A stretch of DNA of 64,000 nt from Comamonadaceae bacterium 2PF. GTDB lineage: Bacteria; Pseudomonadota; Gammaproteobacteria; Burkholderiales; Burkholderiaceae_C. Shown here piece by piece: positions 13,245-31,635 of this stretch (its first letter is position 1; each line of letters opens with the position of its first letter). The DNA is taken from NCBI GenBank assembly GCA_005502875.1, contig SCMV01000020.1, positions 1 through 64,000 of the forward strand, written 5' to 3'. The notes under the pieces were generated by a model that saw nothing but the letters and a program-made list of their open reading frames with translations, was not told the origin of the DNA and made no database searches. The translations under genes were made by a program, and so were the position numbers.

Positions 13245-13331
13245 ATGACCCAGCACCCATCCACGCCAAGCGTGACGGCCCAGCACTTTAGCCCAAGCCC
13301 CTTGACCCTGCCACCAGCCCCGGTGCGCTGA
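13245..13331 (+). CDS. Proline-rich 28-residue leader peptide upstream of the NRPS/PKS
   Basis: A short frame starting at an ATG with two AGGA elements 4 and 9 bases upstream. This is far better than the site in front of the large synthetase, which has none. It encodes 28 residues, seven of them proline, including a Pro-Pro-Ala-Pro stretch just before the stop. The stop (TGA, 13329-13331) is one base before the synthetase ATG at 13333, a layout typical of translational coupling. It is in a different frame from the synthetase. I recognise no family. It may be a regulatory leader peptide, a chance frame, or the true N-terminus if the sequence contains an indel. Confidence 0.5.
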   Translation: MTQHPSTPSVTAQHFSPSPLTLPPAPVR

Positions 13332-13332
13332 G

Positions 13333-16300
13333 ATGGCAACCTCCCACTCCAGCACCGACATGCCCACTCGCGACCTGTTCCCCCTTCGCCAGACCTTGCA
13401 AAAGGCCGCCCAGCGCTGGCCCGATGCCCCCGCGCTGTCGAATGGCCAACAGGTGCTGAGCTACCGGGTGCTGGCCGACCTGGTCGCCCGCCGTGCCGAT
13501 GCCTGGCGCGCCGCCGGCCTGGTCACAGGAGACCGCATCGGCATCGCCGCCAGCCGCAGCATCGAGACCATCGTCTCCATCGTGGCGGCCGTCGAGTCGG
13601 GCTTGGCCTATGTGCCGCTCGACCTGGGCTACCCGAGCGACCGCCTGCAAGCCATGCTCGACGACGCCCAGGTGCGCGCAGTGGTGGGCGAACCCGAAGC
13701 GCTGGAGACCTTGCAGTCGCGCCTGGATGCGCTGCCCAGCCTGGCCTCGCCTCGGCCAGCCGGCCCGCCACCGCACGCTGCCGATGGCGACCTGGTCTAC
13801 GTTCTGTTCACATCTGGCTCCACCGGGCGCCCCAAAGGCGTGGCGATGGGGCTGGCGCCGCTCGCCCACCTGACTGCCTGGCACGCGGCCCATGCCCGCC
13901 TGGGCCAGGCCGCGCGAACGCTGCAGTTCGCACCGCTGTCCTTCGATGTGCACTTCCAGGAGATCTTCTCGACCCTGGCCACAGGCGGCACCCTGGTCCT
14001 GCCCGACGACGCCGACCGCCGCGACCCGGCGCGTCTGCGCGCCTTGCTCGCGCTGGAACGCGTGCAGCGCCTGTACCTGCCCTACGTGGCACTGCAGATG
14101 CTGGCCCAGGCCGACGCCGAGGCCCACAGCCGTGCTGGCGCCCTGCCCTTGTCGCTGCAAGACGTCGTCAGCGCTGGTGAACAGCTGCAGGTCACACCCG
14201 ACATCCGCTCGCTGTTCAGCCGGCTCGGTGGCGCCGTGCTGCACAACCACTACGGCCCGACCGAGACCCACGTCGTCACCGCCTTCGAGCTGCACGGCGA
14301 CGCCCGCGACTGGCCGCAGATCCCGGCCATCGGCAACGCCTTGCCGCACGTGCGCGTGTGGTTGCGCCCAGTGCAGGACGACGACGCCCCCGAGCCCCAT
14401 ACCGCCCCCAGCGAACTGAACCAAGGCGAGCTGATGCTCGGCGGCGACACCCTCGCCGAGGGCTACCTGGGCCGCCCCGACCTGACCGCCGAGCGCTTCC
14501 TCGACCAGCTGCCTGGCCCCGACGGTGTGCCCGCCCGCTGGTACGCCACGGGCGACCTGGTCCGCCAGGACACGGATGGCACCCTCACCTACCTGGGTCG
14601 CGCCGACCAGCAGCTCAAGGTCGATGGCTTTCGCATCGAGCCCGGCGACATCGAGCTGGCCCTGATGGCCCACCCCGGCATCCAGGACGCCGTGGTCACC
14701 GCCCCCACCGACCCGGACGGCAGCCGAGTGCTGACCGCCCACGTCGTGCTGCGCGCAGGTTCTTCCCCCGCCGACCAGACCGTCACCGCCTGGCGTGCCT
14801 GGTTGCGTGACCGCGTGCCCGAATACATGGTGCCCGTGCGCTTCGCCGTGCTGGACAAGCTGCCGACCACGCCCAGCGGCAAGATCGACCGCCGTGGGCT
14901 GCCATCGGCCGTGCCGGCTGCCCGCGCCGCAGGTTCGGGTTCGGCCACCGCTGCACCATCCGGTGAACTGATCGACCGCCTGCGCGCCCTCTGGCTCGAA
15001 CTGCTGGGCCTGGATCATCTGCCCGACGACGCCAACGTCTTCGACCACGGCGCCCGCTCGCTGCTGGTGATGCGCTTCGTCAGCCGTGCGCGCGAGCAAG
15101 GCGTGCAGCTGAACGTGGCCGATGTGTACGACCGCCCGAGCGTGGCGGGCCTGAGCGCCCTGCTGTCTTCACAGGCCCAAGCAGGCAGCGGGCAAGCCAG
15201 TGCCGCCCGGGCTCGTCGTCAGGCTTCGGCAAGCACCGGCGAAGGCATGGCCATCGTTGGCATGGCAGCCCGCGTGGGCACCGCCACCGACGTCGACACC
15301 TTCTGGCAACAGCTGCTGGACAACGTCGAAACGCTGCGCCGCTTCCGCCCCGACGAGATCGACCCGTCCGTGCCCGCCGCGCTGCGCGAACAGCCCAACT
15401 TCGTGGCCGCGCGTGGCGTGCTGTACCAGGCCGATTGCTTCGATGCCGGCTTCTTCGGCCTGTCCGCACGCGAAGCCACGCTGACCGACCCGCAGCAGCG
15501 CCTCTTTCTGGAGCTGTGCTGGAGCGCGCTCGAACACGCCGGCATCGACCCCAGCAAGCTGGGCGGTGACACAGGCGACCGCGTCGGCGTCTACGCCGGC
15601 ACCTCGAACAACGCCTACCTGCCGGCCATGCGCGCCGAGAACCCCGAGCTGATCGCGCAAGCCGGCGAGTTCGCGGCCATGCTGGCCAACGAGAAGGACT
15701 ACGTGGCCACCCGCGTGTCCCACCGGCTCAACTTCAACGGCCCGGCGGTGTCCATCCACACCGCGTGCTCGACCTCGCTGGTGGCCGTGACCCAGGCCTG
15801 GCACGCGCTGGCCCAAGGGCAATGCGACATCGCCCTGGCCGGTGGCGCCACGGTGATCGTGCCGCAGCTCGGCGGCTACCTGCACGTCGAAGGCGGCATG
15901 GAATCGGCCGATGGCCGCTGCCGTCCTTTTGACGCCCAGGCCTCGGGCACGGTGTTCGGCAGCGGTGGCGGCGTGGTCGTGCTCAAGCGGCTGTCGCAGG
16001 CCCTGGCCGATGGCGACACCATCTACGGCGTCATCGAAGGCGTGGGCCTGAACAACGATGGCGGCGACAAGGCCAGCTTCACCGCGCCCAGCGTCAGCGG
16101 CCAGGCCCAGGCCATCCGCATGGCGCTGGAGCATGCCCAGGTCAACGCGCGCAGCATCGGCTACGTCGAGGCCCACGGCACCGGCACGGCGTTGGGCGAC
16201 CCCATCGAGGTGGCCGCCCTGTCGCGCGCCTGGTCGCAGGACACGCGCGACACTGGTTTTTGCACCCTGGGCTCGGTCAAGGGGCACGTCGGTCACCTGG

Positions 16301-30027: not shown

Positions 30028-30124
30028 GATGTTGTCGCTCAGCTCTGCATGCACACACCACCGCACAACTGCATGCGGACCGACGCCATCTTAATTCTGC
30101 CAATCCGCTCTTGCGACTTGCCGC
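30028..30124. promoter_or_regulatory. Divergent promoter region with paired CTGCATGC repeats
   Basis: About 100 bases between the SGNH gene and the methyltransferase gene. The octamer CTGCATGC occurs at 30045-30052 and again at 30069-30076, 24 bases apart (a little over two helical turns), and contains the palindrome GCATGC. This could be an operator for both divergent genes. No clear -10/-35 pair was identified. Confidence 0.35.
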
Positions 30125-30931
30125 GTGACCACCATGCAACTGGCTCAAATCAAACGATTGCCCCTGATTCGGACCTTGTTGCGCGCCCGCGCGATCCGCA
30201 AGTTCCTCGGTCCGCGCGGGCGGGGCTATCACTGCGGCCACTTCGACACCTTTGCACAAGCTCGCGCATGGTTGCCCGACTCGCCCGAGTTCAGCCATGA
30301 CCAGTTCACGCAGGAATACATTGACGAGCGATCCAAGCACATTGGCTCATTCGACTACCCGGTGATCTTCTGGCTGCGTGAGGCATTCGCTGCAGGTGCA
30401 ACTTCGGTGCTCGACATTGGCGGCTCGATTGGCAACCAGTTCTACGCCTACCAGCGCTACCTGACATTTCCTGAAGGCATTGAGTGGCGCGTGCACGAGC
30501 TGCCGGCGTTCGTTCCCCAGGGAAAAGAGCTTGCCGAACAACGAGGCGCCAAGGCCCTGTCCTTTTCGGACGATTGGCCACAAGGCTGGCTCGAAAGCGA
30601 CATCTGGATTGCAGCGGGCGTGCTTGAGTTCGTCGAGGCGTTCGATTTGCCCACGCTGTTGTCACGCGCGCAGCAAAAGCCAACGCACCTGTTCATCAAC
30701 AAGCTGCCCCTGACCGATGCGCCCGCCTTCGTGTCAACCCAGAACATTGGCTTCGGATCGTTCGTTCCTCATCGGGTCTACAACAAGACGGCCTTCACAC
30801 AGGCCATCGCGGGCGCTGGGTACGAACTGATCGACTCCTGGGACGTCCCGGACCGCAAGTTCACCTCACTGGGCTTTGATGACGACAGCTTTGACGCTTA
30901 CAGCGGTTTGTACTTCCGCCGCAAGCCGTGA
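30125..30931 (+). CDS. SAM-dependent methyltransferase-like protein (TIGR04325-type)
   Basis: A protein of 268 residues with a GTG start at 30125, or 265 from the ATG at 30134; neither has a convincing ribosome site. The central motif VLDIGGSIGNQFYAY is a glycine-rich SAM-binding loop. The N-terminal RGYHCGHFDTFAQA pattern is what I associate with the TIGR04325 putative methyltransferase group, often found in polysaccharide and natural-product clusters. Its stop overlaps the start of the phosphopantetheinyl transferase gene (GTGA), tying it to the biosynthetic pathway. The methyl acceptor is unknown. Confidence 0.75.
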   Translation: MTTMQLAQIKRLPLIRTLLRARAIRKFLGPRGRGYHCGHFDTFAQARAWLPDSPEFSHDQFTQEYIDERSKHIGSFDYPVIFWLREAFAAGATSVLDIGGSIGNQFYAYQRYLTFPEGIEWRVHELPAFVPQGKELAEQRGAKALSFSDDWPQGWLESDIWIAAGVLEFVEAFDLPTLLSRAQQKPTHLFINKLPLTDAPAFVSTQNIGFGSFVPHRVYNKTAFTQAIAGAGYELIDSWDVPDRKFTSLGFDDDSFDAYSGLYFRRKP

Positions 30932-31635
30932 GCTGGGACATTGACGTTGCCGCGAAGCAAGCCCCTTGGCAAGGTCCCGGTGGCGTCGGTCAGCTTCTGG
31001 TGGTCAGGCTGCCACATGAAGATGCCAGCCTCAGCGCCAACACCATGGCCTGCCTGAACGCCCAGGATCTTCAACGCGCGAGCAAATTCGCCCGCAGCAA
31101 AGACGCCATTCGCTACATGGCATCACGCGCCGCACTGCGCAGCGCCTTGGCCGGCACATGCAACTGCGCCCCCCACGACGTGCCGTTGACGACCCAGGAG
31201 CACGGCAAACCGATCCTGAAGGCGGCAACCGGTGCCATGCATTTCAATGTGACGCACAGTGACGCCTGGGCACTGATCGTGCTTCACCCGGATCAGGCCA
31301 TGGGCATTGACCTGGAAGTGCACCGGCCCATCGATGGACTGGACGAGCTGGCACTGAGTGTGTGCAGCGCCAGAGAACGGGTCGACTGGATGGCCACTGC
31401 GCCCGCAGATCGTCTGACAGCCCTCTACCGCACCTGGGCACGCAAAGAAGCGTGTCTGAAGGCCATCGGCACCGGACTGCTCACCCCTGCGCAGCAGGTT
31501 GACATGGGCCTGTCTCCCTCGCCTTCACACGGGTCATGGCGCAGCGAGGACGGCCGAAACGTCTGGTGGACAGACCTCGGTGGGCTGCCCATCACGGACG
31601 AACACTCGGCGTGCGTGGCCTGGTGCACGCCCTGA
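30928..31635 (+). CDS. Sfp-type 4'-phosphopantetheinyl transferase
   Basis: A 235-residue PPTase that would load the phosphopantetheine arm of CoA onto the four carrier domains of the synthetase. Characteristic motifs are FNVTHSD, GIDLEVHR (magnesium-binding acidic residues) and WARKEACLKAIGTGL. The GTG start overlaps the methyltransferase stop (GTGA). The presence of its own PPTase marks the right end of the biosynthetic cluster and supports the cluster being functional. Confidence 0.93.
   Translation: MSWDIDVAAKQAPWQGPGGVGQLLVVRLPHEDASLSANTMACLNAQDLQRASKFARSKDAIRYMASRAALRSALAGTCNCAPHDVPLTTQEHGKPILKAATGAMHFNVTHSDAWALIVLHPDQAMGIDLEVHRPIDGLDELALSVCSARERVDWMATAPADRLTALYRTWARKEACLKAIGTGLLTPAQQVDMGLSPSPSHGSWRSEDGRNVWWTDLGGLPITDEHSACVAWCTP

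Follow-up and report, generated by a model that had tools for sequence, protein, structure and literature searches.

A predicted proline-primed NRPS-PKS synthetase of Comamonadaceae bacterium 2PF and its possible role in decorating a surface glycan

In the mycosubtilin synthetase MycA and in iturin-type modules, a class-III aminotransferase is embedded behind an acyl carrier domain, and the MycA starter is a fatty acid. Detoxins and rimosamides contain a Pro-acetate unit, in which proline has been lengthened by one C2 unit. Here we describe a locus of Comamonadaceae bacterium 2PF that recalls both. It lies in the first 64,000 nucleotides of contig SCMV01000020.1 (assembly GCA_005502875.1, forward strand), referred to as the window, and centres on a single gene (13333..26349, plus strand) for a 4338-residue hybrid of nonribosomal peptide synthetase (NRPS) and polyketide synthase (PKS). 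The aminotransferase is placed as in MycA, but the starter is predicted to be adenylated Pro instead of a fatty acid, so the unit formed would be a 3,4-diamino acid. Detoxin and rimosamide, compared by description alone, differ in that an aminotransferase follows in the window line. We propose, at nearly even chances, that the line makes an acyl group which is transferred to a surface glycan.

The sequence-only reading had placed a compact cluster at 13245..31635, starting 88 bases before the ATG of the synthetase gene. The cluster is real: homologous synthetases, whole or in large part and some as fragments, occur in 19 of the 42 Aquabacterium genomes searched, that of the window included. 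The domain composition given there was confirmed by the open reading frame (ORF), Pfam and hidden Markov models (HMMs) built from the window's own domains, from which the order was read as A-T-KS-AT-ACP-AMT-C-A-T-C-A-T. It comprises the loading adenylation (A) domain A1 (13390..14907, residues 20-525), the carrier domain T1 (14956..15147), the ketosynthase (KS, 15238..16767), the acyltransferase (AT, 16795..17772), the acyl carrier domain (ACP, 17914..18138), the class-III aminotransferase domain (AMT, 18535..19842, residues 1735-2170), the condensation (C) domain C1 (19906..21252, SHxxxDG), A2 (21265..22728), T2 (22804..22998), C2 (23080..24432, HHxxxDA), A3 (24502..25983) and a terminal carrier domain (26035..26247), all on the plus strand. 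Pfam counted three AMP-binding, two Condensation, four PP-binding and one each of KS, AT and Aminotran_3 domains, and found no thioesterase domain in the synthetase, including behind the last carrier. KS-AT-ACP, class-III AMT and C thus follow one another in a single hybrid line. The catalytic motifs are all present: Cys/His/His in KS, GHSxGE and HAFH in AT (which we take to be the malonyl type), the AMT Lys, DSL in ACP, three GPTE and the carrier Ser.

The A-domain codes were taken from an alignment with positions placed by eye using core motifs. A1 reads DVQYVAHVV, and A2 and A3 both read DILQLGMVW. According to passages of PMC12283262 on such codes, Val236 together with Gln239 occurs in 59 of 71 Pro-activating domains, and the residues at 299, 322 and 330 are common to 83 of 93 Gly-activating domains; DILQLGMIWK, from which the window code differs by one residue, is named there as Gly-activating. 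Pro starters do not appear in the passages of PMC3870968 that we draw on. The closest PDB relative of the AMT domain is the MycA aminotransferase (6kfm, E 2e-123, 427 residues aligned). By NRPS/PKS logic the collinear product is likely to be 3-amino-3-(pyrrolidin-2-yl)propanoyl-Gly-Gly, the free acid of which has the calculated formula C11H20N4O4 ([M+H]+ 273.156). The composition of the predicted chain, Pro, a malonyl-derived C2 unit with a beta-amine, Gly and Gly, is well supported by the A-domain codes, the motifs and the kinship of the aminotransferase to that of MycA, and in this the sequence-only reading stands. Its tacit assumption that a small pseudo-peptide is set free is doubtful, because Pfam finds no thioesterase, the two hydrolase-like proteins behind the synthetase lack the ordinary serine-hydrolase nucleophiles, and several homologous lines lie in polysaccharide operons. 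No characterised cluster with the same Pro-C2(NH2)-Gly-Gly plan was found in a literature search, mainly of titles and abstract openings.

The two alpha/beta-hydrolase-like proteins, Hyd2 (26322..27188) and Hyd1 (27185..28024), are encoded on the plus strand; the synthetase gene overlaps that of Hyd2 by 28 bases, and Hyd2 and Hyd1 overlap by 4. Their Pfam alpha/beta-hydrolase scores are slightly below the gathering cut-offs. They were aligned in 26 rows, consisting of the window, 16 relatives and nine further loci, with near-duplicates such as G033 and L046 included. In all 26 rows Hyd1 has a Cys at the nucleophile position (GICSA in the window, with a later DH) and a His near the C-terminus, while Hyd2, with GxRxG in the window, has neither Ser nor Cys there in any row. 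The GxSxG of type I or II serine thioesterases is therefore absent from both. The AlphaFold model of Hyd1 has a pLDDT of 84.4 and a pTM of 0.82. We infer that Hyd1 is a Cys acyl-transferase with Hyd2 as its pseudo-enzyme partner.

The remaining genes follow closely. A Cupin_8 protein (28041..28910, plus strand, 16 bases behind Hyd1) contains FHIDR...H and would be an oxygenase of the Fe(II)/2-oxoglutarate type. Next come an SGNH/GDSL hydrolase (28927..30066, minus strand) with a hydrophobic N-terminal segment, a TIGR04325 family methyltransferase (30125..30931, plus strand, by family profile) and an Sfp-type phosphopantetheinyl transferase (PPTase, 30928..31635, plus strand, by Pfam and family profiles), the last two overlapping by 4 bases. 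All of these had been named in the sequence-only reading except the minus-strand SGNH gene, which it missed. The SGNH protein scores over the cut-off of PF00657 and carries all blocks of the family; GDSDSH, GxND and DGH are present in 12 of 12 aligned rows and SGA in five of five. No PDB relative of the SGNH profile was found at E 0.1. A siderophore was set aside as unsupported, since the scanned cassette genes include none of siderophore type.

In the pathway that we propose, L-Pro would be loaded on T1 and extended once with malonyl-CoA by the KS-AT-ACP module, the beta-keto group would be aminated on the ACP by the embedded aminotransferase, and two Gly residues would be added to give the thioester of the chain, a vicinal diamine. 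Tailoring, either of this chain or of the molecule that accepts it, is probably the task of the cupin protein and the methyltransferase. No thioesterase was found; the chain would most likely be taken by the Cys of Hyd1, with Hyd2 as inactive partner, and be transferred rather than hydrolysed. The membrane-anchored SGNH enzyme, replaced by AT3 or S15-type proteins in sister clusters, would act beyond the inner membrane. The likely role would be that of a cationic, peptide-like acyl group covalently decorating a surface polysaccharide or glycolipid. We infer each of these reactions, the membrane topology, the acceptor and the physiological role alike.

The polysaccharide connection comes from relatives outside the genus. 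A scan with the AMT alignment over 84,980 species, each represented by one genome, confirmed at least 592 places, of which the best 80 were kept as loci. An A-KS-AT-AMT head is present in 53 of these 80, followed by C-A in 49 of the 53. Starter codes vary: Hymenobacter, Pedobacter, Variovorax and others have the Pro type (Val236, Gln239), and the other codes are presumably of Val, Leu or unclear types. The window groups with the Sphaerotilaceae rows and the loci L047 and L049 (support 100/100). The first branch of this clade, L049, has Pro and Gly codes and the gene order Bac_transf, Cupin_8, synthetase, Hyd2, Hyd1, glycosyltransferase, epimerase, flippase; its Cupin_8 protein was unmatched by the window cupin in tblastn and so may be of another kind.

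Polysaccharide or envelope genes accompany other relatives too. In Caldimonas mangrovi a UDP-sugar dehydrogenase and an epimerase lie directly upstream on the opposite strand. Downstream of the synthetase, Luteibacter and a Lysobacteraceae locus (L076) both encode a polysaccharide deacetylase and Wzy_C; upstream come Bac_transf and a cupin homologue in the former, homologues of the window methyltransferase and cupin in the latter. A Wza-type protein is encoded immediately behind Hyd1 in Xylophilus. Paraburkholderia tropica shows glycosyltransferase, PPTase, AT3, synthetase, SGNH and glycosyltransferase genes, and Nevskia an AT3-SGNH fusion. The clearest operon is that of Variovorax paradoxus (CP063167): a TIGR04325 methyltransferase gene stands ahead of the synthetase, and in one run there follow PPTase, Hyd2 (GARLG), Hyd1 (GMCSG), a polysaccharide export protein, a tyrosine autokinase, a sugar transferase, a GDP-fucose synthase and glycosyltransferases. 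In Rhizobium sp. SL42 there are a flippase, a TIGR04325 methyltransferase, glycosyltransferases, export proteins and a pyruvyl transferase. Two further arrangements were seen. Variovorax sp. WDL1 has three TIGR04325 methyltransferase genes close to a single synthetase (L136 26573-28295, 38420-39268), and the Mucilaginibacter synthetase is preceded by genes for an aromatic amino acid lyase and for an AMP-binding protein (L058 724-3650) and followed by Bac_transf, OEP and AAA_31 genes.

Proximity was counted in 50 loci that we chose ourselves from the best 80, dropping most short and most cyanobacterial ones, with expected counts derived from copy number and genome size. Among the PF02397 sugar transferase matches listed, one lay within 30 kb of the synthetase in 19 of 50 genomes vs 2.3 expected, and within 50 kb in 25 of 50 vs 3.8 expected. 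For other NRPS loci in these genomes the counts were 4 of 35 (1.4 expected) and 5 of 35 (2.3 expected); this control is rough because the loci were hand-picked among the NRPS matches listed and lean on five genomes. On the tree, where L068 (30.1 kb) was counted with those within 30 kb, the members near PF02397 occur on many different branches outside the cyanobacteria, and their clustering does not exceed that of shuffled labels.

Several points weigh against a role in glycan decoration. By the time the 50 loci were chosen, glycan genes were already known at L065, L093, L114 and L117, and 25 of the chosen genomes have no listed PF02397 match within 50 kb. None of the 19 Aquabacterium genomes has PF02397 within 50 kb on the synthetase contig (nearest 85 kb, in G028), although some of these contigs are short (64.6 kb for the window's genome G000, 41 kb for G016, 15.6 kb for G029 and 12.4 kb for G024). 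No glycan genes were detected among the window neighbours scanned, the flanks read in G031, G033 and G038 look unrelated to glycans by their sequence starts, both ORFs scanned in Xenophilus are unrelated, and in the annotated flanks of Spirosoma linguale there are copper genes and none for glycans. When 47 of 102 flanking ORFs from 13 relatives were pooled for a Pfam scan, both glycan families and unrelated ones came up (25 of 78 matches listed). The operon of V. paradoxus itself has the A1 code DALWIGGTF, which is not a Pro code and which we take to be of Val type. A polysaccharide locus was thus seen around or near the synthetase in several relatives and in none of the Aquabacterium genomes, and any glycan modified by the window cassette would have to be produced from another locus, with the cassette acting in trans.

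Within Aquabacterium, the cassette was compared in 17 fetched relatives, excluding G035 with its fragment at the end of a contig, and codes were counted over 18 synthetases including that of the window. The Pro code of A1 is found in all 17 synthetases with a readable A1, G029 being an odd fragment that lacks this part and has two A domains in succession. For A2 the codes are DILQLGMVW in 12, DVWHLSLVD (presumably Ser-like) in three and DMPQMGLVY in two, with G029 again odd. The predicted chain plan also occurs in other strains. An additional C-T stands ahead of the last C-A-T in five relatives. Homologues of Hyd2 and Hyd1 lie behind the synthetase in 16 of 17 relatives, the seventeenth (G024) being cut by the contig end. 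An envelope-type protein is encoded in all 16 relatives for which downstream sequence exists, SGNH in ten, AT3-like in four and S15-type in two; Pfam confirmed AT3 in G025 and G028 and S15 in G038, and the other three were assigned by 57-97% identity to them. Methyltransferase homologues occur in eight of the 17 and PPTase homologues in 15. Cupin homologues (E up to 1e-30) were detected in 18 of 42 genomes, every one of which has the synthetase; in G024 and G035 the sole copy found lies on a separate contig.

The cassette occupies two chromosomal sites, one beside dus and ech/bipA and the other beside abhydrolase and osmC/pit genes, each with more than one cassette version. Beside the window cassette there is a GMC oxidoreductase gene (32811-34562, minus strand), with homologues in the fetched stretches of G007, G010 and G025 and not in the others at the site. 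The window's genome also has a second cupin, 48% identical (L132 8244-9350, on G000:C8), and G001 a similar extra copy; the single copies of G024 and G035 are of this sort as well. Its GlmS- and GlmU-like neighbours in G000:C8, named by sequence starts, were considered as a clue to the acceptor; surroundings differ in G001 and G024, and we draw no conclusion from them.

Domain-by-domain comparison of identities, which did not include G029, revealed that the synthetase is a mosaic. From A1 to AMT the window is nearest to G007 and G010 (90-100%), with G025 at 87-95%. From C1 on it is nearest to G021 (79-91%), and G025 falls to 40-57%; the tails of relatives diverge after the AMT/C1 point. The cupin follows the tail, with 88% identity to G021, 78% to G007 and 52% to G025. 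Since identity switches between front and tail and the accessory genes track the tail, it seems that tail modules and accessory block move together, with a breakpoint after AMT. The Pro/AMT half is constant.

A free product has to be set against the transfer to a glycan. Hyd1 might act as a trans-thioesterase, so that Pro-C2(NH2)-Gly-Gly leaves the line free or cyclised and is secreted as an antibiotic, protease inhibitor or signal, with the SGNH, AT3 or S15 protein serving export or prodrug activation. The cassette is self-contained with its own PPTase between non-glycan genes at both sites, its tails are exchanged between relatives, as is usual in natural-product lines, and an S15 X-Pro-peptidase-type protein is present in two sister clusters. 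However, there is no exporter among the cassette genes scanned, Hyd1 and Hyd2 lack the ordinary thioesterase nucleophiles, and much of the same gene set is found inside polysaccharide operons of other lineages. We regard a free product as possible, yet doubtful. Either destination could also receive a shorter chain, Pro-C2(NH2)-Gly, if the terminal module added no second Gly and the last C-(A)-T were a transfer or offloading station. This idea arises from decay of the last A domain, which is degenerate or unmatched by the window A profile in nine of the 17 fetched relatives and missing in G029, in total ten (the contig of G024 ends just behind it). In such terminal modules (L031-L043) the A domain decays while C and T persist, and lines in Variovorax, Luteibacter and Xenophilus end in C-T without a matched A. 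The window's A3, however, retains the full Gly code and GPTE, and the last A is intact in eight of 18 synthetases, the window included; for this line the shorter chain appears unlikely.

A third function, chelation of Cu(II) or Ni(II) by the vicinal diamine and adjacent amides for copper tolerance or uptake, could be exerted by a free or a polysaccharide-bound product, since diamine ligands chelate metals. Metal binding and the shorter chain thus overlap with both glycan decoration and a free product. Of the 31 plasmid relatives found, four annotated ones were examined, and two carry copper genes at a distance of up to 20 kb, namely Variovorax sp. WDL1 (copper oxidase, cupredoxin and copper-binding proteins, L136 32976-37247) and Spirosoma linguale (multicopper oxidase and two copper P-type ATPases, L138 28271-37754). 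Metal genes are common on plasmids, however; no copper genes are annotated in the stretch shown of the other two, nor were any present among the window genes scanned, and a metal-binding function is quite improbable. No plasmid matched DNA 28041-31635. Decoration of a surface glycan is the reading that we prefer for the window line. For the family as a whole, which is widespread in Burkholderiales, Xanthomonadales, rhizobia and Bacteroidota, we suggest more tentatively, at somewhat under even chances, that it supplies vicinal-diamine aminoacyl groups, often with Gly, for surface polysaccharides and not free products. They would be transferred by the Cys/pseudo-hydrolase pair or other offloading enzymes together with envelope acyltransferases, the tails being swapped between strains and the diamine head kept constant.

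A known pair related in sequence to the two hydrolase-like proteins is that of the exosortase-A-associated hydrolases 1 and 2 (TIGR03100, TIGR03101). Hyd1 (E 2e-18) and Hyd2 (E 3e-27) resemble them, but with 67 and 96 bits they stay under the curated cut-offs of 168 and 203. A link to exosortase A was discarded; exosortase is present in 41 of the 42 genus genomes and therefore has no power to discriminate. It lies about 25-50 kb from five Aquabacterium synthetases (G031:C27:7468, G032:C219:31720, G038:C4:636813, G015:C3:56117 and G033:C25:79659), which may be chance; G031/G032 and G038/G015 resemble sister pairs, and the intervening G038 genes are housekeeping-like by their sequence starts.

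If glycan decoration is correct, a class of megasynthetases that genome mining would report as orphan small-molecule clusters belongs to cell-surface biology, bacterial glycans bear cationic peptides with beta,gamma-diamino acids, for which no one would think to search, and a Cys/pseudoenzyme pair is on offer for offloading. Even with a free product, a little-explored diamino-acid scaffold is predicted in at least 19 Aquabacterium genomes, and the module swaps found in nature show a place, between AMT and C, where recombination works.

We found no report of NRPS-PKS products bound to bacterial polysaccharide in a literature search, mostly of titles and abstract openings. The sheath of Sphaerotilus, likewise a member of the Sphaerotilaceae, reportedly contains a peptide-bearing surface polysaccharide, the glycoconjugate thiopeptidoglycan, said to have been described by Kondo in 2011. 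Its amino acids differ from those predicted here, and we know of no link between it and an NRPS. With Dlt D-alanylation and the AT3-SGNH acyltransferase systems (OafA/OatA), the proposed system would share a carrier-bound acyl group, an SGNH or AT3 envelope protein and a glycan acceptor. It would differ in that the acyl group comes from an NRPS-PKS megasynthetase and in that SGNH and AT3 are alternatives across the Aquabacterium clusters.

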